From Bacteroidales bacterium (GTDB lineage: Bacteria > Bacteroidota > Bacteroidia > Bacteroidales > UBA932): DNA of 64,000 nt. The notes under the pieces were generated by a model. It was not told the DNA's origin, made no database searches, and saw only the letters and a program-made list of their open reading frames with translations. This document shows positions 149 to 47,182 of this stretch, one piece after another. Positions within the stretch are counted from its first letter, which is position 1. Each line of letters opens with the position of its first letter. Both the position numbers and the translations under genes were made by a program. The stretch is from the NCBI GenBank assembly GCA_017561265.1, contig JAFZDJ010000001.1, forward strand, positions 12,258 to 76,257, in the 5' to 3' direction.

Positions 149-1681
149 TTACAGACTTCTGCGCCACTCAAAGTATGAATTCAATATCCACATTGCATCC
201 TCATCAGGAACAGGTGCAGGATAAGGATCATTACCCTTGAGAACCATAGTAACATGGTTATCTTCAGTGAATTCAGGCCACTCAGGAAGACCTTCGCCGT
301 TAGGATCGCCATATTTTGCGAAATTTGTCCAGTATGTAGCCATGATATCAGAAAGCTCATAATCAGTGTCTGTATCTTCCTTCTTCAATGTCTTGAAGAC
401 GAAATCCACGTCCTGTCCGTGCGGAGATCCGTTTCCATACTGAGGGGATCCCTCCGGATACTCCGGATGCTGGTCGAAATAATACATATATACCTTGCTG
501 TTGCCCTTCTCGGACTGAAGTCTTGCCCAGCTCCATGTGTGCCATCCGAAGGATGCATCACGGGCAAGGTCTCGTCCGGTCTTGGTGACCACAGGGCCAT
601 CCACAGGATATGCCTTGAGCAGTTCTTCTGCAAATGGACCGTATCTTTCCTCCACGCTTGCCCTATGAGCTGCAGCATCGTTGCTTCCGAATGAGAAACT
701 TGCTCCCTCGTCAGAATTGTAACCGATAAGAACGTCTACATCGTTGAACTTTCCAGCCTCATAGAGCCTGTACTGATCATCAGGAATGACATATCCGTCA
801 ACAATCGGCCATGGACCGCCGGCAAGTGCAAATCCTCCTCCCAATTTATCCGGCTCCATTGCCCTCAAATCTGCAATAGATTCTGCGCCCAGTCTTTCCG
901 CCAGGTTTACTCCCTGCTTCTCTGCAATCTCGAGGCTTGTCATGTTCTCACCCGGATATGATCGCTCCTCGACAGGGCCGAATGATCCGCCGCTCTGGGA
1001 GATCGCACCCCTGAATAATCCCTTTGCAAGAGGAGAAGCACAAAGCATGCTTACCGAAATACCTCCGGCAGATTCTCCGAAGATCGTAACTTTCTCAGGA
1101 TCACCACCGAAGGCAGCGATATTATCCTGAACCCATTCAAGAGCAGCGATCTGGTCGAGAATTCCGTAATTACCGGAAACACCCTCCGGGTTTTCAGCAC
1201 TGAGCTCAGGATGAGCAAAGAATCCCATCTGACCTACTCGATAATTCATGCTGACAAGAACAACACCTTTTCGTGCAAGTTCGGAGCCATCATTTCCAGC
1301 AGAATTTCCCATAGAAAAGCCTCCTCCATAGATCCACACAAGCACAGGAAGCTTCTCCTTCGGTGATTTTGCAGGAGTCCATACATTGAGATAAAGGCAG
1401 TCTTCAGAAAAGGCATCTGATTTTCCGAAGCCCTGGATAGGGCCCGGACCGAACTCAACAGTTTCCTTCACACCTTCCCAAGGCTGTACAGGCTGCGGAG
1501 CCTTCCACCTGAGGTCTCCCACTGGAGGAGCTGCAAAAGGTATTCCCTTATAAATCATCAGGTCTTCTGTGACCTCTCCCTGAATAATACCACCGGTTAC
1601 CTTAACCTGACCTGGTTCCAGCCTGGTACAGGCCAGACATACAGCAAAAGCTGTCAACAATAAAATCGGTATTCTTTTCAT
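149..1681 (-). CDS. Carboxylesterase type B family lipoprotein
   Basis: This 510-aa protein is an alpha/beta hydrolase of the carboxylesterase type B (COesterase) family, which hydrolyses carboxylic esters. The nucleophile elbow GESAGG puts the catalytic Ser at residue 204; GGG at 119-121 forms the oxyanion hole; an Asp-Glu-Gly segment near 325 and His in GSPHGQD near 424 would complete the triad. The N-terminus is hydrophobic and ends in CLAC with Cys18, a loose lipobox, so it is probably a periplasm- or surface-anchored lipoprotein. It begins 9 bases after the GH115 gene, in one operon with it. Removal of acyl or methyl esters from xylan is an inference from that neighbour; the family alone does not give the substrate. 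Confidence 0.88.
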   Translation of the reverse strand: MKRIPILLLTAFAVCLACTRLEPGQVKVTGGIIQGEVTEDLMIYKGIPFAAPPVGDLRWKAPQPVQPWEGVKETVEFGPGPIQGFGKSDAFSEDCLYLNVWTPAKSPKEKLPVLVWIYGGGFSMGNSAGNDGSELARKGVVLVSMNYRVGQMGFFAHPELSAENPEGVSGNYGILDQIAALEWVQDNIAAFGGDPEKVTIFGESAGGISVSMLCASPLAKGLFRGAISQSGGSFGPVEERSYPGENMTSLEIAEKQGVNLAERLGAESIADLRAMEPDKLGGGFALAGGPWPIVDGYVIPDDQYRLYEAGKFNDVDVLIGYNSDEGASFSFGSNDAAAHRASVEERYGPFAEELLKAYPVDGPVVTKTGRDLARDASFGWHTWSWARLQSEKGNSKVYMYYFDQHPEYPEGSPQYGNGSPHGQDVDFVFKTLKKEDTDTDYELSDIMATYWTNFAKYGDPNGEGLPEWPEFTEDNHVTMVLKGNDPYPAPVPDEDAMWILNSYFEWRRSL

Positions 1682-1690
1682 AATATGCGG

Positions 1691-4279
1691 TTAGTTCTGT
1701 TTTCTTTCATGATATGACTCTGTGCCAAAGAGATAACTTTTCTTATAACCTCCGAAATCGACAACAATCTTCTCGAAGACGATACCCGGGTCAAGTGGCT
1801 GGATCTCAAGATCGTATACCGATGTTCCCTCAGGTAATTCAAGTTCTATTTCCTCAACTGCAACGCGTCCCGCAACTGTCGGATAGTACACCGAGTAGAT
1901 ATTCTCAGGATTCTCGTTCAACCTGTCGTTGAAACAGCGGTCAACAGCAGCAGCACCCTTGAAACCTACCCTGTAGCTATGACCTTCAGCGTCATGGAAT
2001 GCAAGTGTAGACTTTGTTGCAATATGGACTGTAACCTTTTCCACACCCTCAGGAATCTCCATCCTGTATGTCAACTTGGCTCCATCAACAGGAACATCAT
2101 ACGGGAACAGAGCTACAGCACCGAGAGTACGTCCCATATCCGGGATAAGCGTCCATGTTCCTTCAGCAGAATTCTGCTTCGAATAAACGTGTGGAGCCTC
2201 TATCACCACACAGCCGTCAGAAGGTCTGAATGCAAATCCTGTCGGGAACGGATCCGTTTCCTCTACTCGGAAGATTCTCGGAAGAGTGTCCTCAGGGAAA
2301 TTGTCATTCCAGCTTCTATAGCCTATGTGTTTCTGTATCATCATGTTCTTCCACTTTCCACCGGCCATTTCATTATTATACTGGTTGGTAAGGAACTTAT
2401 CGCGTGCAAAGCATGCCTCAACCTTGTCAGCCCAGATATTTGCAGCTGGATCGTTTGCCTGATAAAGAGCATGGTTCATCGCCTGAGCATAGTACATTTC
2501 ATACACGTTGGCAAGAGCCTGTACCGGGAAGAGAATAAGCTGGAAATAAGCATCCTTGGCATCTTCAGGAAGAGTCATATACTGACGAAGCGCCTCAGCT
2601 TCCAACTTGATGAACTCATCGGAAACCTGCTTCCACTCACCTGTCGCAAGATTATAGGTCCTGCTGTCAAGCATCTCTGCAGTCACTCTTCCCGCATATT
2701 TGCTGTAGAGATTAAAGATTCTCGCAGCCTCTGCCGCCTGCTCATCGCCGAACTGCTGTCTGCAGAAATCTACAGTATGTTCCTTGAGATTTTCAGCTGT
2801 AAACCTTGTTGGATTCCAAGCCATGTCAAGGAAAAGAGTGATAGGATATTCCATAGGTTTCATATCACCTACATTGAGAACCCAAAGACGGTCGACACCG
2901 TACTCATAAGTAAGCTGCATCTGCTCCCATAGATTCTGTACAGGAGTGACATTCAACCACTTGGTGTTTCTTGGTGCACCCACATAATCCACATGGTAGT
3001 ACATTCCCCATCCTCCTGAACGCTTACGCTCCTCGGCATTCGGAAGTTTTCGCACATCTCCCCAGTTATCATCGGAGAGAAGAATGGTCACATCGTCAGG
3101 AACTCTGAGACCCTTTTCATACAAAGTCTGAACCTCTTTATAAAGAGCCCACACCTGAGGACGTTCACTGGCCGGCTTGCCTGTAACATTCCTGATGATC
3201 TTCCTCTGATTATCAAAGATCTTCTGCATCATATTTATAAGGTATGCATAATCAGGAACATACTCATCATCATGTCCCTCTTTTCCACCCATGGCAGCAT
3301 CTCCGTCGCCACGCATACCGATGGTGATAAGGTCTTCCGTATCCTTTGCACGCTCGATACCTTCACGGAAGAATTTATCCAAAACCTTCTTGTTTGTTCC
3401 ATAATCCCAAGCACCGTATTCTCCTCGCTTACGCGCCCATTCCTGATGATTTCTGGCCATTGGCTCATGGTGTGAAGTACCCATGATCACACCCATCTCA
3501 TCAGCAATCTTGCTGTTAAGCGGATCATCTGCATAGAATGCCCAGTCCCACATTGCAGGCCACATGAAGTTACCGCGAAGACGAAGGATGAGTTCGAACA
3601 TACGCTCATAGAAGCGGTGGTCACCGTACTTTGTACCATAAGTATTCTCCACCCATCCGGTCAGACATGGAGCCTCATCATTGAGGAATATTCCTCGATA
3701 GCGGACTGCCGGTTCTCCTGCCGTATATGAGCCGCGCGCAATCGAAAGATTCTGCTGCCTTGCAACAGGCACATCCATCCAGTCATACCACGGAGACACA
3801 CCGATCTGCTCGGAAATCTCATAAATTCCGTAAACGACTCCCCTGCGGTCACTTCCTGCTATGACAAGAGCTTCCGCTATTCCTTCAAGCGGCTCCATCA
3901 CAGTCTGAATCAGATATTTCTCATTACGACCTTCAAGTTCGGCAGTAGAGAATTTACCTCGACCCACCATTTCCTTCACATACGGAGAATCGAGGGATCC
4001 GATTATGATTACAGGTCCGGAAGACACCTTGTCTGATATCTGGGGCTTATTTCCGGTGACACGCTCAAAGTCCATGACCAGATTGTCAGCAGCACGGAGA
4101 ACAGCCTTGTCTTCTGTCTGAGAAACGAGAATCGGAACAGGACGTCCGGATTCCACGAGTGTAAATCTGTCTGAAGCAAGTGAAGGGAGAACAGCCTTCG
4201 GATGATCCAATGCATTTGCAGGAACTGCAAAAGTCAAGGCAAGAAATAAAAATAGATTTCTGATGATGTAATGTTTCAT
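1691..4279 (-). CDS. Glycoside hydrolase family 115 (xylan alpha-1,2-glucuronidase)
   Basis: This 862-aa protein has a signal peptide (residues 1-23, ending AVPANA) and the GH115 core, including the segments GIFLNDEAPCLTGW, LRGNFMWPAMWDWAF and MGTSHHEPM. Characterised GH115 enzymes remove (4-O-methyl)glucuronic acid from internal and terminal xylose of glucuronoxylan. A beta-sandwich-like C-terminal part follows from about residue 690, as is usual in the family. I chose ATG at 4279; an in-frame TTG at 4288 would add only three residues before the signal peptide. It is the first gene of a two-gene operon with the esterase and is divergent from GH127. A possible minus-strand -7 box (TAAATTTG, complement of 4302-4309) lies upstream. 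Confidence 0.9.
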   Translation of the reverse strand: MKHYIIRNLFLFLALTFAVPANALDHPKAVLPSLASDRFTLVESGRPVPILVSQTEDKAVLRAADNLVMDFERVTGNKPQISDKVSSGPVIIIGSLDSPYVKEMVGRGKFSTAELEGRNEKYLIQTVMEPLEGIAEALVIAGSDRRGVVYGIYEISEQIGVSPWYDWMDVPVARQQNLSIARGSYTAGEPAVRYRGIFLNDEAPCLTGWVENTYGTKYGDHRFYERMFELILRLRGNFMWPAMWDWAFYADDPLNSKIADEMGVIMGTSHHEPMARNHQEWARKRGEYGAWDYGTNKKVLDKFFREGIERAKDTEDLITIGMRGDGDAAMGGKEGHDDEYVPDYAYLINMMQKIFDNQRKIIRNVTGKPASERPQVWALYKEVQTLYEKGLRVPDDVTILLSDDNWGDVRKLPNAEERKRSGGWGMYYHVDYVGAPRNTKWLNVTPVQNLWEQMQLTYEYGVDRLWVLNVGDMKPMEYPITLFLDMAWNPTRFTAENLKEHTVDFCRQQFGDEQAAEAARIFNLYSKYAGRVTAEMLDSRTYNLATGEWKQVSDEFIKLEAEALRQYMTLPEDAKDAYFQLILFPVQALANVYEMYYAQAMNHALYQANDPAANIWADKVEACFARDKFLTNQYNNEMAGGKWKNMMIQKHIGYRSWNDNFPEDTLPRIFRVEETDPFPTGFAFRPSDGCVVIEAPHVYSKQNSAEGTWTLIPDMGRTLGAVALFPYDVPVDGAKLTYRMEIPEGVEKVTVHIATKSTLAFHDAEGHSYRVGFKGAAAVDRCFNDRLNENPENIYSVYYPTVAGRVAVEEIELELPEGTSVYDLEIQPLDPGIVFEKIVVDFGGYKKSYLFGTESYHERKQN

Positions 4280-4435: not shown

Positions 4436-6784
4436 ATGAAATTAATCAAAAATTTATCTATTGTGGCTATACTTTTTTCCGCTGTTGCAGCAAACGCACA
4501 GATTCCTGTGCAGATGGAAAGCTTCAGCGTAAATGATGTTACGCTGACAGAGAGCGCGTTCAAGCACGCGGAAGAAATGGACATCAGATATCTCCTCGGC
4601 ATCGATCCGGACCGTCTCCTTGCTCCATATCTGAAGGAAGCAGGCCTCGAGCCGAAGGCGGACAACTACACCAATTGGGAGAATACCGGACTTGACGGAC
4701 ATATCGGAGGTCATTATCTTTCAGCATTGGCATACATGTATGCTTCTACAGGACATCCGGAAATCAAGGTTCGCCTCGACTACTTCATTTCGGAACTGAA
4801 AAGATGTGCCGACGCCGACGGAAACGGCTACATCAGCGGAGTACCTGGAGGACGCCAGACCTGGAAGGAGATTTCAGAGGGAGACATACGTGCAGCATCA
4901 TTCAGTCTGAACGACAAATGGGTACCGCTCTACAACATACATAAGATATTCGCTGGCCTCAGAGACGCCTGGCTCCTTTACGGCAGCGAAGACTGCAGAG
5001 AGATGTTCATCGGCCTTGCAGATTGGATGTACAGGCTTACAGAGAATCTTACAGACGAACAGCTGCAGGGTATGCTTGCGAGCGAACACGGCGGTCTTAA
5101 TGAAGTGTTTGCTGATGCAGCTGCAATAAGCGGTGACGGGAGATTCATGGACATGGCCAAGAGATTTTCACACAAAAGAGTGCTTGACCCACTCCTCAAA
5201 GGCGAAGACCATCTTACCGGCATGCATGCCAACACACAGATTCCTAAGGTCATAGGATACAAGAGGATAGCTGATATCGAAGGCTATGCAGACTGGGACA
5301 AGGCAGCTCAGTATTTCTGGGAGACAGTAGTGGACAACAGAAGCATAACCATCGGAGGTAACAGCGTCAGAGAGCATTTCCATCCAGCAGATGACTTCTC
5401 GAGCATGCTTGAAAGCGAACAGGGTCCTGAGACCTGCAACACATATAACATGCTCAGACTCACCAAGATGCTATATCAGACAAGTGGCGACACACACTAC
5501 ATGGATTACTACGAGAGAGCTGTATACAACCATATTCTTTCAACAGTCAATCCGATTCAGGGAGGTTTCGTATACTTCACCCCTATGCGCTCAGGACATT
5601 ACAGGGTATATTCCCAGCCTCAGACAAGCTTCTGGTGCTGCGTGGGTTCGGGAATGGAGAATCATGCAAGATATGGAGAAATGATCTACTCCCATAGAGG
5701 CGATGAAGAACTTTTCGTCAACCTCTTCATTCCATCTGTGCTTGCTTGGGGAGACACAAGGATCGAGCAGATCAACAATTTCCCTGCAGAGGAAGGCACA
5801 AGCCTGATGATCAGCCCTGAGAAATCAAGAAAATTCACTGTAGCCGTCCGAGTTCCGGAGTGGGCAGGAAAGATGGCCGTGAAGATTAACGGAAAGGCTG
5901 CAGATACTGTCATTGAAGACGGTTTCATCAAATTGACAAGAAAGTGGTCGAAGGGCGACAGGATTGATGTTTCACTTCCGATGTCGCTCAGAGCAGTACC
6001 TCTTCCTGACCAGTCGGACAACTATTCATTCATGTATGGTCCTGTCGTGCTTGCCGCATCACTTGGAAAAGAGGATCAGCTCGGAATGTATGCTGATGAC
6101 AGCCGCGGAGGACATATAGCATACGGAAAGCAGCTTCCTCTTCAGGAAATGCCTGTAATCGTAGGTAACAAGGACAATATTCTTGCAAACATCACCAAGG
6201 TTGAAGGCAAGCCGCTTACATTCACCCTCACCGGAACTGCACCGGCCAAATATAAGGAAATGACCCTCGTGCCATTCAGCGGTCTTCACGAATGCCGTTA
6301 TATGGTATATTGGCCTGTCCTTACAGAAGAGCAGTGGAAGGAAAGGGTGGCAATACAGGAAGAGGAAGAAAGAGCAAGACTTGCCCTTGAAATGATCACT
6401 GCAGATAAGGTGACATGCGGAGAACAGCAGCCGGAAAGCGACCATTTTGTAGAAATGGACAGATCGAGAAACGGAGACCACAACGGCAGGCATTGGCGAA
6501 TGGCAATGCCGGGCGGATGGTTCAGCTATGCAATGAACACAAGAGGCCATGAAGTGAAGCATCTACGTATCATATGCACAGGACGCGAGGGTTCGGAGGC
6601 TGTGGTCACCATGAACGGAATCGAAGCCGGCAGCTTCAAGACAGGTACGCCGAACACCGAGGAGACTCACCTCATCCCAGTCCCTCAGCAGATAGCCGGA
6701 GAGGGACAGATCATCATAAGAATCAGTTCTGCAGAAGGCAAGGCAAGTCCTATGATTTATGAAACACGACTTGTAATAGAGTAA
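4436..6784 (+). CDS. Glycoside hydrolase family 127 (beta-L-arabinofuranosidase type)
   Basis: This 782-aa protein has a signal peptide (1-22, ending AANAQ), so it is periplasmic. It carries the GH127 (old DUF1680) fold: an alpha/alpha barrel followed by beta domains. The zinc-thiolate site of the characterised enzyme HypBA1 can be traced: Glu332-x-Cys334 in GPETCN and Cys401-Cys402 in SFWCCVGSG, the first of these being the expected nucleophile. Glu313 is the likely acid/base by rough alignment. About 130 residues at the C-terminus (from about 650) form an extra domain often attached to this family. The family acts on beta-linked L-arabinofuranose, which fits the xylan/arabinan cluster. It is followed by a terminator, so it may be transcribed alone. 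Confidence 0.87.
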   Translation: MKLIKNLSIVAILFSAVAANAQIPVQMESFSVNDVTLTESAFKHAEEMDIRYLLGIDPDRLLAPYLKEAGLEPKADNYTNWENTGLDGHIGGHYLSALAYMYASTGHPEIKVRLDYFISELKRCADADGNGYISGVPGGRQTWKEISEGDIRAASFSLNDKWVPLYNIHKIFAGLRDAWLLYGSEDCREMFIGLADWMYRLTENLTDEQLQGMLASEHGGLNEVFADAAAISGDGRFMDMAKRFSHKRVLDPLLKGEDHLTGMHANTQIPKVIGYKRIADIEGYADWDKAAQYFWETVVDNRSITIGGNSVREHFHPADDFSSMLESEQGPETCNTYNMLRLTKMLYQTSGDTHYMDYYERAVYNHILSTVNPIQGGFVYFTPMRSGHYRVYSQPQTSFWCCVGSGMENHARYGEMIYSHRGDEELFVNLFIPSVLAWGDTRIEQINNFPAEEGTSLMISPEKSRKFTVAVRVPEWAGKMAVKINGKAADTVIEDGFIKLTRKWSKGDRIDVSLPMSLRAVPLPDQSDNYSFMYGPVVLAASLGKEDQLGMYADDSRGGHIAYGKQLPLQEMPVIVGNKDNILANITKVEGKPLTFTLTGTAPAKYKEMTLVPFSGLHECRYMVYWPVLTEEQWKERVAIQEEEERARLALEMITADKVTCGEQQPESDHFVEMDRSRNGDHNGRHWRMAMPGGWFSYAMNTRGHEVKHLRIICTGREGSEAVVTMNGIEAGSFKTGTPNTEETHLIPVPQQIAGEGQIIIRISSAEGKASPMIYETRLVIE

Positions 6785-40146: not shown

Positions 40147-40377
40147 TTATTTTAACAAGATTTCCAAAATGACAGCACCTAGCATACATATAGTCACGAC
40201 TGCCGATGCAAGGGCCAGTTTCTTGAGAATTATCAATAACGTCTGCATCTCCGACTTCTCGACAGCATTTTTCAGTATGGTCCTTTTCAAAGCCGAGGCA
40301 TCCGGATGTTCTCCTGTCACTTTAACAAGAAAGCGGACATAAGCTGAATAATCTATATATTCATCTGACTTTTCCAT
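40147..40377 (-). CDS. Small single-helix membrane protein beside the sigma factor
   Basis: This 76-aa protein has about 45 charged residues, then one membrane helix (about 48-72). I chose ATG 40377; a longer start at 40401 lies deeper inside the sigma gene. Its frame overlaps the sigma stop by 17 bases. I do not recognise a family. A cytoplasmic N-terminus plus one helix directly after an ECF sigma gene is the layout of a membrane anti-sigma factor, but the sequence shows no zinc-binding or FecR domain. Confidence 0.65.
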   Translation of the reverse strand: MEKSDEYIDYSAYVRFLVKVTGEHPDASALKRTILKNAVEKSEMQTLLIILKKLALASAVVTICMLGAVILEILLK

Positions 40378-40951
40378 ATATCTCCAATTCTCGCTTGACA
40401 CGGTTTCTCGCCGTCCGCAGCTCTCTTACGATTTCATCAAAATGCCTTCTTGTCATAACCACAGCCTCATGAACAGAAACCCCTTCAAGCTCACATAGCA
40501 CATACGCGATCCTTTGTTCGGCTGTAAGCTCTCTGGAGGCACGGCAGAAAATGACCCAGGTTTCTTTCGTTATATAGTCATCTTCCTGCAAACGTGCCCG
40601 AGGAGCCGATTTCTCATACACATCAGGCCGCATGGCAAAAATATCGAGCCATCCCCTCCTGCGAAGGTGCCCTAGACAGAAATCGCATGTCATACGGTAT
40701 ATCCATGACTTGACATCAATAACCTCATCATACGAGGCTGAATCATTCCAAATAGACATGAAGACAGAACATGTAACTTCATCAGCAGCACCCCTGTCGC
40801 ATAATATACGATAGGACGTTCTTGCAACCATATCCAGATATTTTTCCACTATCACTCTGAACATATCCATCCGTCCCCCGGCAACGCTTCTTATAAGATC
40901 AGCATCACTGCAACGATTCACCTCTTTATTCATATCATTCATATCCATCAA
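40361..40951 (-). CDS. ECF-type RNA polymerase sigma factor
   Basis: This 196-aa protein has region 2 at about 15-90 (DADLIRSVAGGRMDMFRVIV, then DVKSWIYRMTCDFCLGHLRR) and a region 4 helix-turn-helix at about 140-190 (LTAEQRIAYVLCELEGVSV, then RRHFDEIVRELRTARNRVKR). It leads a four-gene operon with the small membrane protein, CDP-alcohol phosphotransferase and GtrA. Its promoter region faces the PspC operon and shares the palindrome at 40987-41005. Confidence 0.88.
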   Translation of the reverse strand: MMDMNDMNKEVNRCSDADLIRSVAGGRMDMFRVIVEKYLDMVARTSYRILCDRGAADEVTCSVFMSIWNDSASYDEVIDVKSWIYRMTCDFCLGHLRRRGWLDIFAMRPDVYEKSAPRARLQEDDYITKETWVIFCRASRELTAEQRIAYVLCELEGVSVHEAVVMTRRHFDEIVRELRTARNRVKRELEIYGKVR

Positions 40952-41095: not shown

Positions 41096-41686
41096 ATGAA
41101 AAAGACAATCAATGTAGCTATCGGAGGTTGCAGCTTCACTATCGATGAAGATGCTTACAACACTCTTAATGAATATCTTGAGCGATTCAAATCCGCTCTT
41201 GACTACAGCAGTTCAAGAACTGAAGTAATGGACGAACTCGAGGTAAGGATTGCAGACATGCTTAAAGGAAAGCTTGGCGGAAGACAGGTCGTAGATCTCG
41301 CAATGACCCAGGAAGTGATAGGCAGGCTCGGCTATCCTGAAGGTTATAGACAGACTGACGAGCAGACTGGTACTTATGAAGGTTCCAAGAACGAATACCA
41401 CTACAGCGGATACGACGGAGAGAAGCCTGTAAGAAAGCTTTTCCGCGATCCTGATGGAAAGCGTATTGCAGGAGTATGTTCCGGTCTCGCCCTTTTCCTT
41501 GGAGTTGACGTAGTTCTTATCAGGGTCATATTCCTCGTTGCCTTTATCTGCGGATCGGCAGGATTCTGGATCTACCTCGTGATCTGGATTGCAGCTCCGG
41601 AAGCAAGAACCGCAGCAGAAAAATGCGAACTCCGAGGCATTCCTGCCACTGCAGAAAACATAAGAAGATTCACTGAAGGAAGATAA
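41096..41686 (+). CDS. PspC-domain membrane protein (first copy)
   Basis: This 196-aa protein has an N-terminal soluble domain of about 85 residues typical of Bacteroidota PspC proteins (INVAIGGCSFTIDEDAYNTL, ending with a Gly-rich REV-like stretch) and a PspC domain at about 113-172 (KLFRDPDGKRIAGVCSGLA, LVIWIAAPEA) with two membrane helices. PspC proteins belong to envelope-stress systems. It is 3 bases before the padR gene and is a paralogue of the third gene in the operon. Confidence 0.87.
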   Translation: MKKTINVAIGGCSFTIDEDAYNTLNEYLERFKSALDYSSSRTEVMDELEVRIADMLKGKLGGRQVVDLAMTQEVIGRLGYPEGYRQTDEQTGTYEGSKNEYHYSGYDGEKPVRKLFRDPDGKRIAGVCSGLALFLGVDVVLIRVIFLVAFICGSAGFWIYLVIWIAAPEARTAAEKCELRGIPATAENIRRFTEGR

Positions 41687-41689
41687 GCC

Positions 41690-42037
41690 ATGGACACAAC
41701 AGGCATAATCGAGAACAACAGAACCCAGATGAGGCGAGGGGTGCTGGAATACAGCATCCTTCTCATCCTGGCTGCAGGCGACGAATATGCCTCGTCGATA
41801 ATCCAGAAGCTCAAGGAGGTCAACATAATAGTCGCGGAGGGCACCACCTATCCCCTGCTCATCCGCCTCAAGAAACTTGGTCTGCTTAACTACAGATGGG
41901 AAGAATCGACGCAGGGACCGCCTAGGAAATACTATATGATCACGGATCTGGGACGCGAGCAGCTCGCCGGTCTGGACGCAGCATGGGACGAACTTGCAAA
42001 AGGCATTGAAACAATAAGAAAAGGATCTAAAGCATAA
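41690..42037 (+). CDS. PadR-family transcriptional regulator
   Basis: This 115-aa winged-helix protein has the PadR core: RRGVLEYSILLILAAGDEYA, then EGTTYPLLIRLKKLGLL and PRKYYMITDLGREQL. PadR proteins usually repress the operon they lie in. It is flanked on both sides by PspC genes, 3 and 14 bases away, and the operon promoter carries a perfect palindrome. Confidence 0.93.
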   Translation: MDTTGIIENNRTQMRRGVLEYSILLILAAGDEYASSIIQKLKEVNIIVAEGTTYPLLIRLKKLGLLNYRWEESTQGPPRKYYMITDLGREQLAGLDAAWDELAKGIETIRKGSKA

Positions 42038-42051
42038 CCTTTACAACGAAA

Positions 42052-43110
42052 ATGAAGACAACAGAAAACATAAGCCTCGCCGGCTACGCATTCACAATAG
42101 AGACTGATGCATACGAAGAGCTGGGAGCCTATCTCAGCGACATAAGGACATGTTTCAGCGGTGATGCAAGCGCCGATGAGATAGTCGCAGATATTGAAGA
42201 ACGCGTAGCTGAACTTCTTCGTGAAAGATGCATCAGCGGGATGGTCGTGGATCTTACGATGGTGCGTGACATAAAGAGACGCATAGGCAATCCGAAAGAA
42301 CTTGCACAGGAAGATACGGAAGCCTCATTCCAGACAGGAGACAAAACACAGGATCAGCCTAAGTCAGAAAGAAAAGCAGAAGGCAACAATAAAAAGATCT
42401 ACAGGAATTTGGACGAAAGGGTTCTGGGAGGAGTATGTTCCGGACTCGGCACCTATTTCGGTATGGACAAGGTATTTTTCCGAATCATATTCCTGACCCT
42501 CGTATTCATCAGCATTTTCGGCTTTGAGAACGGTCCGTACATATTGTTCCCTATGTTTGCATACAGCGGTCTGTGGCTTGCCATGCCTGCTGCCAGGACT
42601 GCGGAACAGAAGCGTGAAATGAAGGGTAAACCGATGAATCTCAACAACTACAAAGAGAAGGATTTCAATTTCGAGAAAGAAGTAAAGGAAGCCTCCCAGT
42701 CTCCCGGAGTCAGGACAATCGAGAAAGTCGGTGGAATATTTCTCGGCATACTCCTCCTCTTCGCCGGTCTCGGAGGTCTCGTAGGCGGACTTGTCCTGCC
42801 TTCACTTCCGACAATGTTCGATTCAAACATTGCCAAAATCATAAGTGAATGGGGTACACTCGACGCAGAAGAGCAGCTGATAGCATCCATCCTCACATCC
42901 ACCACATTCTGGGGGCTGGTCCTGATCGTACTGGGAATCTTATGCGTATGTTTCATATACAATGGAGTAATGCTTCTTTTCAATCTCAAGGCACCGTCAT
43001 GGAAGCCTGGACTCGTACTGTTCATCGCATGGGTCATAAGCATATTCGTGCTTGCAGGATGGGTTGCTATGACGGTAGGAGAGGCATTGCCGGCATTGAT
43101 AGTACTGTAG
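42052..43110 (+). CDS. PspC-domain membrane protein (second, longer copy)
   Basis: This 352-aa paralogue has the same N-terminal domain (SLAGYAFTIETDAYEELGAY) and PspC domain (about 117-178: NLDERVLGGVCSGLGTYFG). The C-terminal half adds a linker and three to four more membrane helices (about 225-250, 280-305, 318-345). The operon therefore encodes two PspC proteins of different topology together with their likely repressor. Confidence 0.87.
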   Translation: MKTTENISLAGYAFTIETDAYEELGAYLSDIRTCFSGDASADEIVADIEERVAELLRERCISGMVVDLTMVRDIKRRIGNPKELAQEDTEASFQTGDKTQDQPKSERKAEGNNKKIYRNLDERVLGGVCSGLGTYFGMDKVFFRIIFLTLVFISIFGFENGPYILFPMFAYSGLWLAMPAARTAEQKREMKGKPMNLNNYKEKDFNFEKEVKEASQSPGVRTIEKVGGIFLGILLLFAGLGGLVGGLVLPSLPTMFDSNIAKIISEWGTLDAEEQLIASILTSTTFWGLVLIVLGILCVCFIYNGVMLLFNLKAPSWKPGLVLFIAWVISIFVLAGWVAMTVGEALPALIVL

Positions 43111-43135
43111 TTTTTCTATCATAAGATTGTTAAAC

Positions 43136-45481
43136 ATGTACAGATTAACATATATGACGCTGACAAAAAACATTATCCGTGCCGCTACTTCCCTATTTAT
43201 GGCGGCACTTTCATTGAACGCATCCGCCCAGTCCATGAAAGGAAAGGTTGTGGATGAAAACAATGTCCCACTTGCATATGCCAATGTAATGCTCCAGAAG
43301 GCCGACTCGACCTATCTTAGCGGAACTATGACAGATACTCTCGGTGTGTTCTCAATGCCGGCACATGCAGACGGAAGAATGATCCATGTCTCCTTCATCG
43401 GATACGAACCATTTCATGCCCCGGTCAACGGAACAGACTTCGGCACGATCAAGATGAATCCAGATACGGAGATGCTGGGAAAGTCTGTTGTCAAAGGATA
43501 CCTTCCGAAGACAGTCATAAAAGGAGATGCATTCGTAACTCCTGTCGAGAACAGTGTCCTTGCCGAGGCCGGATCTGCGAACGATGTCTTGCAGAAGCTG
43601 CCCGGGGTAATTTCCAAGGACGAAGGATTCGAAGTAATAGGCAAGGGAACTCCTATCATTTACATAAACGGCAGACTTCTGAGAGACAATTCCGAACTGG
43701 AGCGTCTCAGTTCCAGGGAGATCAAGTCTGTAGACGTCGTCCAGAATCCCGGGGCAAGATATGACGCTACCGTAAAGGCGGTGATAAGGATCCAGACCAT
43801 AAAGAGAGTCGGAGACGGATTCGGTTTCGACGCAAGCTCGAAATGGTCACAGTCGAAATACACCAACCTCAACGAGGTCGTGAATATAAACTACCGACAT
43901 GACGGTATTGATGTATTCGGAACATTGGCATATACCGGTTCGGAATATTTCCAGGACACGTACCTCCATCAGACACTCAAGTCGAAGCAACTTCTCGAAA
44001 CAAAACAGGAAGGATATTTTGAAAACAAGGATCAGTCACTCAATACCACTCTAGGTTTCAACTGGCAGATAAAGGACAATCACTCTATAGGAATGCGATA
44101 CAGTCCGAACTTCAGTCTCAGATCTTCATCCTCTCAGGATGTAAGGACAAGAGCTACATTGGACGGTCTGCTGGACGATGAAACAAATACCGTTGCAGAA
44201 GGACATTCCGATCCATCCATGACACATGAAGTGAACATGTACTACAACGGCGCAGCCGGTAAGCTCAACATCGACTTCAACGCTGACTTCCACGACAGCA
44301 GAAGCAATGGGCTCATGACATATAACGAAGACAGCCAGTATCAGGACGATCGTATCGTGAATACGACAAGCAATACCCATAACAGGCTTTATGCATCCAA
44401 ACTGACGTTGACATACCCTCTCTTCAAGGGTATCATCACAGCCGGAAGCGAATATTCTTACACTGACAGATACGACGAATACATCAATGGAGAAGGTTAC
44501 GTACCAAGTGCGCATACGACCATAAACGAGTCGGAAACAAGCGCTTACATTGAATATGCCTACCCGTTGCCGTTCGGAAGCCTTACAGCAGGAGTACGAT
44601 ATGAACATATCGGATTCAATTATTACGAGAATGACATTCTGAAGGAAGACCAGAGCAGAACTTACGACAACTTCTACCCTAACGCATCATTTGCAGCCAT
44701 AGCCGGTCCTTTCCAGTTCCAGCTGAGCTATACGGCAAAGACATCAAGGCCACAATACAGTTATCTGACAAACTCCACCTTATATATCGACAGATACACC
44801 CTGCAGCAGGGTAATCCGCTGCTCAGGCCGGAGATGAACCATGATGCTTCGTTTGCCGTAGTATGGAAATTCATTCAGGCCGGAGTAAGCTATCAGGTCG
44901 CCAAGAACGCAATCCTGCATCAGGCAATCGCGCAGAAGGATATGGACAATGTAATCCTCATCTACTACGATAATTTCGGTAAGAAGATCCCGACAATGCA
45001 GGCGATGATTGCAGCAACACCGACTTTCGGGATATGGCATCCAAGGCTCACTCTCGCACTTGTAAAACAATGGCTTACAATGGATTACACCGACGAAACC
45101 ATCCACATGAATCAGCCGCTCCCTGTAGTACAGTTCAGCAACACTCTTGTTCTGCCTAAGGGCTTCATGGTCAATGCCGACTATACATTCCAGGGCAAGG
45201 GAGACAGCAGGATCTACCATCTCATGAGAGCGACAAACAGTCTCAACGCATCAGTCAGGAAAGGCTTCCTGAGCAATGCCCTAACGGTAGAAGTCTTTGC
45301 AAACGACATTCTTGACGATCAGGCTAGTGAAATGAGAATGTACAGCGGCCAATACTCGATCAGGCAATGGAGCAAGATGTCCATGCGTTCATATGGTATC
45401 ACCCTCAGATACAACTTCAACACGACTCAGAGCAAGTACAAGGGCACTGGTGCCGGCAAGTCCCAGAAGGACAGAATGTAA
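43136..45481 (+). CDS. TonB-receptor-like outer-membrane beta-barrel protein
   Basis: This 781-aa protein has a signal peptide ending ASAQ, a carboxypeptidase-like regulatory domain (about 33-110: KGKVVDENNVPLAYANVML), a TonB plug domain (about 120-215: NDVLQKLPGVISKDEGFEV, PIIYINGRLL) and a large barrel (about 250-765) of the OMP_b-brl_3 type. I use ATG 43136; the frame extends only to a TTG at 43127, and an ATG at 43154 is also possible. No SusD-like partner is encoded. It precedes the sigma-barrel gene, which may respond to it; that is inference. Confidence 0.85.
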   Translation: MYRLTYMTLTKNIIRAATSLFMAALSLNASAQSMKGKVVDENNVPLAYANVMLQKADSTYLSGTMTDTLGVFSMPAHADGRMIHVSFIGYEPFHAPVNGTDFGTIKMNPDTEMLGKSVVKGYLPKTVIKGDAFVTPVENSVLAEAGSANDVLQKLPGVISKDEGFEVIGKGTPIIYINGRLLRDNSELERLSSREIKSVDVVQNPGARYDATVKAVIRIQTIKRVGDGFGFDASSKWSQSKYTNLNEVVNINYRHDGIDVFGTLAYTGSEYFQDTYLHQTLKSKQLLETKQEGYFENKDQSLNTTLGFNWQIKDNHSIGMRYSPNFSLRSSSSQDVRTRATLDGLLDDETNTVAEGHSDPSMTHEVNMYYNGAAGKLNIDFNADFHDSRSNGLMTYNEDSQYQDDRIVNTTSNTHNRLYASKLTLTYPLFKGIITAGSEYSYTDRYDEYINGEGYVPSAHTTINESETSAYIEYAYPLPFGSLTAGVRYEHIGFNYYENDILKEDQSRTYDNFYPNASFAAIAGPFQFQLSYTAKTSRPQYSYLTNSTLYIDRYTLQQGNPLLRPEMNHDASFAVVWKFIQAGVSYQVAKNAILHQAIAQKDMDNVILIYYDNFGKKIPTMQAMIAATPTFGIWHPRLTLALVKQWLTMDYTDETIHMNQPLPVVQFSNTLVLPKGFMVNADYTFQGKGDSRIYHLMRATNSLNASVRKGFLSNALTVEVFANDILDDQASEMRMYSGQYSIRQWSKMSMRSYGITLRYNFNTTQSKYKGTGAGKSQKDRM

Positions 45482-45510
45482 TAAAAACACATTTTTCACG
45501 CAGTCTTTTC

Positions 45511-45518
45511 TATATTTG
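45511..45518 (+). promoter_or_regulatory. -7 box of the sigma-barrel gene
   Basis: TATATTTG matches the Bacteroidota -7 consensus and lies 17 bases before the ATG at 45536, giving a leader of about ten bases. I see no good -33 box. Confidence 0.5.
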
Positions 45519-45535
45519 GGGTACATTATATATGA

Positions 45536-47110
45536 ATGGCACCTATCAGCGACATAGAAAGACAGGTTTTTACCGATATATATGAGACATACTCCGGAAA
45601 ACTATACGGAGTATGTCTTCATTATGTCCATGACCACCAGACGGCAGAAGATCTTCTGCACGATTCTTTCATAGTCATTTTTTCCAGTCTTGACAGCCTC
45701 AGGGATCCGTCAAAACTGGAGCCATGGATGCGTTCCATCGTAAGAAACATAGCATTCAAGTATCTGAAGGACACTCAGAAAACAGTTGTGACTGACATCG
45801 AGTCGATTCCCGAACCGTTGTTTGAGGAGACCACAGCTCATTTCACTGAAATACCTCTGAACGAACTCCTTGAAGTGGTCGACACACTTCCTGAACAATA
45901 TGGCAAGGTATTCAAACTCTCCGTACTTGACGGACTGTCGCATAAGGAGATCAGCGCTGTCCTGGGCATTGCTCCCCACTCGTCATCATCCAATCTTGCA
46001 AGGGCCAAACAGATGCTCCGCAAGGTCATATCCAAGAATTGGGGAATACTGATGACATTCTGTCTCTGCATTCTTGCAATACTTTTCATGATAAAGCCGG
46101 ACATATCGGAAACCTTCATGGCAGGCACTCGTGAAATCCAGCTCATACCAGCCGGAAGGCAGGAGATCCTCATCGCTGAAATCAAGAATCCGGCAGATCT
46201 GAAGCCTTTGGAATTCAGAAGCATACGCAAGGAAGATATTGCAACTGAAGAAGAAACATCAGAACATCCGGATGATGTCTCCTGCCCTGAAATCAGCAAA
46301 ATGCCTGAGTCACCGGAAGAAAACATCGAGACCCAGGTGCAGACTTTTGAATCTTATGATTTCTTCGAGGAAGAATCAGAGAATGACAGAAGGGAGAAAA
46401 GAAGAATCCGGTTCGGATTGAGCGGAAACGTCGGCAATCCTGCAGATGGAAGGATGAAGACACAATTCGCTCCTCAGAACCAGCTGCCTCCAATAGGATC
46501 GGGGATAAATCCTCCTTACACAGGCGGCAACATATCCACCAGCATCATAGGCCCGACACCTCCGGAAGGAGTGGACAAACCGGGAGAAAACCAAGGAACA
46601 GGCAACAATGAAGTCGGAAACACGACCATAGTGAAAGACAAAGTCATAAAATACAGACATGCCATGCCTGTAACTGTCGATGTTTCATTGACATATTCAT
46701 TTACAGACAGGTGGTCAATCGCGACAGGCCTAAGATACACTTATCTGCACTCCGATATAAATGATCTGAAAGGCAATTGGCTGCACGGGCAGGGCATACA
46801 TTATATCGGTATACCTTTAAAGGCATCGTGGACATTCTGGAAGTCATATCATTTCAACGCCTATATATCTGCAGGCGCGGCAGCAGATCTCCCTGTCGCG
46901 GCACAAAAGGCAGGCAGAAAGATCGATCTGCCATGCCAATGGTCGGCAGGACTTGGGCTCGGACTACAGTATGACATCACCCCTCGTGTCGGAATCTATA
47001 TTGAGCCTGAGCTGAACAGATATTTCGAAAATGCAAGCAAGGTGGAAACCATCCGTTCGGAAAGACCTGTAACCTTTACTTTGCCTATAGGCATACGATT
47101 CTCATTATAA
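45536..47110 (+). CDS. ECF sigma factor - transmembrane helix - outer-membrane barrel fusion
   Basis: This single 524-aa frame begins as an ECF sigma factor: region 2 at about 10-80 (AEDLLHDSFIVIFSSLDSL, LEPWMRSIVRNIAFKYLKD) and region 4 at about 108-165 (LDGLSHKEISAVLGIAPHS). Right after region 4 comes one hydrophobic helix (169-186), then an acidic, Pro/Gly-rich linker (187-290 and 300-370) and a C-terminal outer-membrane-protein-like beta domain (about 291-300 and 375-524: VDVSLTYSFTDRWSIATGLRY, GLGLGLQYDITPRVGIYIE, ending PIGIRFSL). In related operons these are usually two genes, sigma and anti-sigma/barrel. No anti-sigma domain is visible. The reading frame is open throughout. Confidence 0.85.
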   Translation: MAPISDIERQVFTDIYETYSGKLYGVCLHYVHDHQTAEDLLHDSFIVIFSSLDSLRDPSKLEPWMRSIVRNIAFKYLKDTQKTVVTDIESIPEPLFEETTAHFTEIPLNELLEVVDTLPEQYGKVFKLSVLDGLSHKEISAVLGIAPHSSSSNLARAKQMLRKVISKNWGILMTFCLCILAILFMIKPDISETFMAGTREIQLIPAGRQEILIAEIKNPADLKPLEFRSIRKEDIATEEETSEHPDDVSCPEISKMPESPEENIETQVQTFESYDFFEEESENDRREKRRIRFGLSGNVGNPADGRMKTQFAPQNQLPPIGSGINPPYTGGNISTSIIGPTPPEGVDKPGENQGTGNNEVGNTTIVKDKVIKYRHAMPVTVDVSLTYSFTDRWSIATGLRYTYLHSDINDLKGNWLHGQGIHYIGIPLKASWTFWKSYHFNAYISAGAAADLPVAAQKAGRKIDLPCQWSAGLGLGLQYDITPRVGIYIEPELNRYFENASKVETIRSERPVTFTLPIGIRFSL

Positions 47111-47182
47111 TTTTTTATATTTGTACGCAGTCTTCTCATAATATCCGTATCTATTATGTAGAAACATAAAAAACGAATAATC

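Follow-up and report, generated by a model that had tools for sequence, protein, structure and literature searches.

Can a single polypeptide carry an ECF sigma factor at one end and an outer-membrane barrel at the other, and how would such a protein act? Signalling across two membranes to a gene usually takes several proteins. In the FecI/FecR/FecA system an outer-membrane protein controls an ECF sigma factor across the periplasm, and three separate proteins are involved, the outermost a TonB-dependent receptor; in the 64,000-nucleotide stretch of Bacteroidales DNA analysed here (the window), in contrast, one chain appears to span the whole route, with the sigma factor and a small OmpA-type barrel in one protein.

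Domain architecture of the fused protein

The preliminary description of this DNA had reported one continuous 524-codon frame with a sigma factor, a membrane helix and a barrel-type domain. This frame is intact, and has the following parts:

45536..47110, + strand: single 524-codon frame encoding sigma domain, membrane helix, tether and barrel in one protein (524 aa)
45578..45781, + strand: sigma region 2, residues 15–82 (Pfam Sigma70_r2; pLDDT 93–97 over residues 11–80)
45860..46018, + strand: sigma region 4, the expected reader of the −35 element, residues 109–161 (Pfam Sigma70_r4_2)
46037..46093, + strand: inner-membrane helix, residues 168–186 (hydropathy 2.31; N-terminus predicted to be cytoplasmic)
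46094..46396, + strand: acidic disordered tether, predicted to be periplasmic, residues 187–287 (pLDDT mostly <50; composition)
46397..46435, + strand: barrel strand 1, residues 288–300 (strand at 290–299 in both models; aligned across homologues)
46436..46645, + strand: Gly/Pro/Asn-rich barrel loop 1, predicted to be at the cell surface, residues 301–370 (structure model)
46646..47107, + strand: barrel strands 2–8, residues 371–524

The ECF sigma portion comprises regions 2 and 4 (residues about 5–165) and scores above the cut-offs of Sigma70_r2 (40.8 bits, cut-off 24), Sigma70_r4_2 (48.2, cut-off 25.7) and TIGR02937 (81.2, cut-off 42.9), and below those of TIGR02985 and NF058625. Region 4 is conserved among the fused sigma factors, and P147-H148 form the start of its recognition helix in the window protein. 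The last sigma helix (residues 147–167) and the membrane helix (residues 169–185) are almost continuous in the structure model. The helix is flanked by a net charge of +5 in the 15 residues before it and −1 in the 15 after it; the corresponding means of +3.8 and −0.4 among fused proteins suggest that these are oriented with the N-terminus in the cytoplasm.

Residues 288–524 are predicted to form a closed, eight-stranded barrel of the OmpA type, with strand positions given by the structure model and fold matches, so that a barrel after residue 290, on which the preliminary description had staked its interpretation, is strongly predicted. The C-terminal barrel stands, but it starts at residue 288 and not at 375 as described, and the Pro/Gly stretch at 301–370, counted there with the linker, is according to the model a loop within the barrel and not part of the tether. 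This loop is about 71 residues long in the window protein and spans 19–80 residues among fused proteins; the even number of strands and the short turns on the opposite side would place it at the cell surface. The matches found with Foldseek and VIA span residues 4–167 and 287–524, and therefore barely test helix and tether, while the pTM of 0.44 means that the placement of the domains is not predicted. The tether measures 93–136 residues where the barrel match is complete (31 fused proteins) and 80–186 residues over all 92, which should be long enough for crossing the periplasm.

The fusion is real and conserved

A protein search returned 441 homologues, of which the top five have 79–93% identity; the match covers the full query in 116 of the 120 listed. 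For a scan at locus level we used one genome per species and an alignment of close homologues (A1) as query. It found 84 relatives through sigma-type patterns, and 80 loci were retained by their match to the fused query; the same contig scan with a single sequence instead of the alignment gave no matches. Sigma and barrel share one frame in 76 of the 80 loci, a count that, owing to this selection, proves that the fusion is real and not how frequent it is relative to two-gene forms. Homologues are thus not, as a rule, split at codon 165–170, the pattern that had been named as a sign of a local sequencing error. Among the four loci that are not intact, L066 lies at a contig end and three have a broken frame. 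L052, alone among the 80, stops near this position, with an in-frame stop at about codon 172, just before the helix, that leaves a sigma factor of 171 residues on its own and the remainder open behind it; the identical sequence is present in L165 and in genome G546. The frame is lost at the end of the helix in L051 and within the sigma domain in L029. L052 and L051 could be either natural free-sigma variants or sequence errors; intact relatives exist.

The fusion is not confined to these loci. In the family of the Segatella copri genome, at least 95 of 399 genomes match a wider profile (A2) over its full length, nine of these hold two such matches, and two, one of them G546, have an internal stop; as the best three candidates per genome were scored, the count may be too low. 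Across the order, with the narrower profile A1 and again the best three candidates per genome, at least 5 of 392 genomes have a full-length match (G003, G106, G200, G285 and G337), and the fused frame occurs also in G318 and G328. The genus of G860, probably Bacteroides, has full fused matches in 9 of 158 genomes, and when 119 genomes were searched for relatives, the only matches besides G860 itself were G789 and a broken copy in G058. Named carriers of the fused gene include Prevotella denticola, Hoylesella timonensis, Segatella copri and Hallella colorans. Among the 120 of 1590 protein matches listed, the organisms named are Bacteroides sp. AN502(2024), an uncultured Muribaculum sp., an uncultured Bacteroides sp. 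and a Bacteroides sp. MAG. One fused gene of the type found in rumen Bacteroidales (L054) lies on a contig labelled as a Fibrobacter sp. MAG, which may reflect misbinning.

The same plan also occurs split over two genes (29 pairs were examined), and an assembly or sequencing error could in principle have joined two such genes. We give this explanation practically no credence: the single frame recurs in loci from many projects, the residues across the sigma/helix junction are conserved (W169, G170 and T174 are invariant in 24 sequences), and the 76 loci together with the 95 family genomes rule it out. The same architecture, sought in other genomes as had been proposed, is real and conserved in one polypeptide.

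Relation to Dma proteins and proposed mode of action

Dma proteins were reportedly first described in PNAS in 2024. According to a report on Bacteroides thetaiotaomicron, Dma3 spans both membranes, carries a sigma domain of its own at the N-terminus and has no separate ECF21 sigma factor beside it, and the family plan is a membrane helix, a disordered tether and a C-terminal barrel, with an anti-sigma domain before the helix (PMC13088901). The architecture, which the preliminary description had contrasted with the usual separate genes, is therefore already in print, and the window protein, as far as descriptions can be compared, is of the Dma3 kind: both have a sigma domain at the N-terminus of the same protein, a single helix, a long disordered tether, a C-terminal barrel and no adjacent cognate sigma factor. 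The only match (E ≤ 0.01) of a fused-sigma profile in the 64 kb window is the fused gene itself. The window differs in its neighbouring genes, which encode a serpin and PspC proteins.

The same report presents Das1/Dma1 and Das2/Dma2, each an ECF21 sigma factor with a dual membrane-spanning anti-sigma factor, as regulated systems in which loss of Dma1 or Dma2 acts through Das1 and Das2 (PMC13088901). They share the helix–tether–barrel plan, by which we liken them, but are encoded by two genes there and by one here. Mutants in dma1 and dma2 show increased expression of the dma3 locus (bt_2778-2779), and deletion of dma3 leaves the vesicle phenotype of these mutants unreverted (PMC13088901), a result that weighs against the function proposed below for the fused members. 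BT2778 is annotated as a sigma-70 factor and is 2.3-fold up without iron in another study (PMC10434189). In Phocaeicola vulgatus, a toxin study describes a sigma/barrel anti-sigma pair (M0N98_03760-61) that is induced by the toxin BcpT, with the sigma gene up 33-fold and envelope stress as the authors' likely signal (PMC9308784). That anti-sigma factor is likewise predicted to reach an outer-membrane barrel, but it is a separate gene.

In the literature searched, which was mostly open access, we found no account of how widespread the fused form is, of its promoter element or of the absent anti-sigma segment, all described below. The sole match for a membrane-tethered, membrane-bound or membrane-anchored sigma factor concerns methanobactins, and a TamL paper only cites the Dma work. 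New here are the grouping of the fused proteins on two trees, the missing segment before the helix and the promoter element shared with the next gene; what was a brief remark on Dma3 thereby extends to numerous natural family members, with a candidate promoter, a candidate adjoining target and a missing anti-sigma segment.

On balance we favour reading the fused protein as a Dma3-type trans-envelope switch made of a single component, an autoregulated sigma factor that would be freed by proteolysis when its barrel is disturbed. The precedent comes from the two-gene systems built on the same plan. The sigma domain (residues 5–165) would be made together with the signal-anchor helix (168–186) and so be pinned to the inner membrane, the acidic tether (187–287) would span the periplasm, and the eight-stranded barrel (288–524) would sit in the outer membrane. 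At rest, the sigma domain would be held off simply by its fixation to the membrane. If the barrel misfolded, were displaced, or gained or lost an external partner, proteases might cut first the tether and then the helix, and the freed sigma factor would transcribe its own gene and the following one, here a serpin gene, from (T/C)GCAGT(C/A)TTT plus a −10 element.

Fused and two-gene forms differ before the helix

Four of the five searched genomes that carry a fused gene also contain pairs in which a sigma gene is closely followed by one for a barrel protein. The 29 pairs have sigma factors of 176–204 residues and barrel proteins of 399–492 residues; L125 (492 aa), for example, is a two-gene barrel protein without a sigma domain. 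In the sigma-domain tree, a branch sets 51 of the 52 fused rows apart, with an SH-aLRT support of 88 with four distant ECF rows included and of 100 without them. The barrel tree has the same split, again with 51 of 52 fused rows on one side (support 98; two changes). This agreement of the sigma and barrel trees on 51 of 52 rows indicates that the two ends stayed together. Fused proteins that group with the window protein on both trees occur in the genus of G856, G782 and G860, which appears to be Bacteroides.

The exception on both trees is L124 from G002 (1355-3049 on the minus strand, contig C56), a fused protein of 564 aa with 31 residues before the helix, whose sigma and barrel both group with two-gene forms. 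Judged from these sequences it is perhaps a second, independent fusion; the sigma tree is also compatible with a single clade of all 52 fused rows (p-AU 0.605). In a smaller sigma tree, L057 also adjoins the pairs (support 81).

Fused and two-gene proteins differ in what precedes the helix. The helix starts at most seven residues past the end of the sigma match, and sometimes overlaps it, in 90 of 92 fused proteins, with the detectable gap limited by a search that ran from 15 residues before to 60 after this end. The two exceptions are L124 and L059 (56 residues; the helix call is doubtful). In the 29 two-gene barrel proteins, 45–89 residues (median 50) precede the helix; this stretch of about 50 residues is where the published layout of Dma proteins has the anti-sigma domain. 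The window protein has two residues between sigma match and helix, and thus no anti-sigma domain there of the kind that defines Dma1 and Dma2. When 79 fused proteins were scanned freely for hydrophobic stretches, 45 had one, 23 had two (some of these overlapping), eight had more and three had none. As the segment is absent and the published layout has an anti-sigma domain at this place, the fused form appears to have lost its anti-sigma segment and to have joined the sigma domain directly to the helix.

With about 50 residues missing and no room for an anti-sigma domain between sigma and helix, the membrane itself probably restrains the sigma factor, most likely by anchoring it; possibly, a separate anti-sigma factor is encoded elsewhere. 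Without this segment, which two-gene relatives have ahead of the helix, the anatomy is also suited to release by proteolysis. One-component membrane regulators such as ToxR and CadC suggest a different course, in which the sigma factor is active while tethered: polymerase and promoters would be drawn to the inner membrane, where the sigma factor sits, and its activity would be changed by tension on the barrel or by the barrel's position and not through cleavage. The nearly continuous sigma and membrane helices of the model would fit this, as would the retention of region 4, in that cutting is not needed for folding. Yet region 4, within about seven residues of the bilayer, would have to bind core polymerase and −35 DNA, which looks sterically hard, and the two-gene systems that are related by plan are thought to free a soluble sigma factor. 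We regard activity in the tethered state as improbable.

Slightly further from what we expect is a polyprotein whose constitutive cleavage would yield a sigma factor and an outer-membrane protein that act independently, with no signal passing between them. The mean pairwise identities in the close set A1, 70–82% for sigma and 60% for the barrel against 22% for the tether, could be read in this way, and L052, with its stop just before the helix, still encodes the sigma factor alone. The helix, however, is conserved as well (60%) and directly follows the sigma domain in 90 of 92 proteins, which a mere linker would not need, and two-gene relatives by plan carry the same helix, tether and barrel on an anti-sigma domain, a regulatory setting. 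We therefore consider the polyprotein unlikely and retain release by regulated proteolysis as the favoured reading.

A candidate promoter element shared with the next gene

Two copies of a candidate element flank the fused gene:

45499..45524, + strand: putative ECF-type promoter ahead of the fused gene, in two parts (CGCAGTCTTT and, after a spacer, GGTAC), conserved before relatives
47126..47150, + strand: second copy of the promoter element, before the serpin gene, at the same place in L001–L003
47183..48448, + strand: serpin gene, predicted target of the fused sigma factor (Pfam Serpin, E 1.1e-93; lipoprotein-like N-terminus by eye)

The core ACGCAGTCTT occurs exactly twice in the window, ahead of the fused gene and ahead of the serpin gene, and the longer bipartite pattern has two matches in the window and none in 100 shuffles. 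A third match to the core, TGCAGTCTTC at 4997 on the minus strand, has no matching −10. With up to one mismatch, ACGCAGTCTT precedes the start in 28 of 77 loci with upstream DNA and occurs in 0 of 229 windows inside genes. The candidate element, generalised as (T/C)GCAGT(C/A)TTT, lies before many fused genes and before the gene that follows. In its slightly wider form [CT]GCAGT[CA]TT[TC] it stands no more than 120 nt ahead of the fused gene in 43 of 76 loci, no more than 120 nt past its stop in 35, and at both places in 34, against 25 of 11,760 control windows from the rest of the loci, which are largely coding DNA. In 28 of the 34 loci with both copies, the 10-base variant is identical before and after the gene. 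As the loci are related, these counts are not independent. The arrangement suggests that the fused sigma factor probably switches on its own gene and that of its neighbour.

In the 33 of 76 loci without the element, a search for a common upstream motif gave none that was convincing. These loci (e.g. L019, L062 and L069) are mostly from Prevotella-type MAGs, many of them from ruminants. In a number of cases the preceding gene stops a short way ahead, and its end resembles, by eye, a type IX secretion sorting tail; an operon and other control are possible.

A genome-wide search of five genomes with the bipartite pattern, which was shaped on the clade of the window, gave 14 matches versus eight with the reversed pattern as control. 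The genome that carries L001, G001, was the only one with an excess, at six matches versus one; two of its six flank the fused gene and two precede other genes. The latter, candidate further targets, encode a TIGR04134 radical-SAM-associated lipoprotein (L147, G001:C43:152011) and a glycyl-radical activase-like protein (L153, G001:C83:18024).

The element differs between the two forms. Two-gene sigma factors have TGCAGTATTT in 15 of 29 pairs (15 of the 15 with an element) and CTTT in none, while CTTT is found in 36 of 52 fused genes with an element. Residue 147 covaries with the seventh base of the element: all 36 cases with P or A have C there, and 28 of 31 with E have A, in a column picked from 71 after looking. 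A tree-aware test on the neighbouring residue 148 found only two independent pairs on well-supported branches, of which about one agrees and one does not differ. That the association reflects region 4 reading the −35 element is suggestive only.

Neighbouring genes and the possible signal

The preliminary description had placed the gene beside a receptor-like barrel protein and a surface serpin. Both neighbours are confirmed, the serpin by Pfam; its location at the surface is suggested by a signal-like N-terminus seen by eye. The upstream context is as follows:

41096..45481, + strand: genes for PspC (41096), PadR (41690), a PspC/LiaI-like protein (42052) and an OMP_b-brl_3 barrel protein (43127)

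The upstream barrel protein matches TonB-dependent receptor models, with no STN signalling domain listed. The gene order upstream is the same in L001, as read by eye from translations.

A serpin gene lies beside the fused gene by Pfam in the window, L001, L004, L063 and L071 only, and by eye in L002, L003 and L069. L063 and L071 are without the element and L004 is without the downstream copy. The next gene elsewhere encodes a methyltransferase (L036, L227), a CotH protein (L065) or a lipoprotein-like protein without a Pfam match (L009). In L013 (7764-9905) and oral Prevotella relatives, genes for a radical SAM/SPASM protein and then a Gfo/Idh/MocA protein follow with the element ahead, a putative target operon.

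A link to the serpin through a protease-bait loop was considered and rejected, as loop 1 is no longer in serpin-linked members than in others: 71, 60, 67, 66 and 28 residues in the window and L001–L004 and 20 each in L063, L069 and L071, against a median of 65 (19–80) in 84 other fused rows.

As to what disturbs the barrel, a special case of the favoured switch is a monitor of barrel assembly, in which the signal would be failed insertion and nothing external, and the unfolded barrel or exposed tether would recruit the protease. We hold this narrower version to be a minority prospect. It draws on the P. vulgatus two-gene regulon, which is induced by BcpT together with many genes induced by bacteroidetocin A, an inhibitor of BamA (PMC9308784), and on the PspC-type genes upstream in the window, whose order is kept in L001. 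The variation of loop 1 from 19 to 80 residues speaks against it, as such variation might be expected if the loop touched variable partners outside the cell.

Beyond the trans-envelope switch as such, we put forward, as a tentative generalisation, that fused sigma factors work without any anti-sigma factor, with the inner membrane as inhibitor and the outer-membrane barrel as trigger, and that each may have its own promoter code, read by the first residues of the −35 recognition helix and common to one neighbouring effector gene. The window would then encode an alarm complete in itself, which on disturbance of the outer membrane triggers production of a serpin; if this is true, a protease inhibitor is made in response to such disturbance.

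Upstream of the PspC genes, the window contains another ECF-like sigma gene (40361-40951, minus strand), whose region 4 scores below the Pfam cut-off and which is not matched by the fused-sigma profile; it is followed by a gene for a short membrane-type protein (40147-40401, minus strand).
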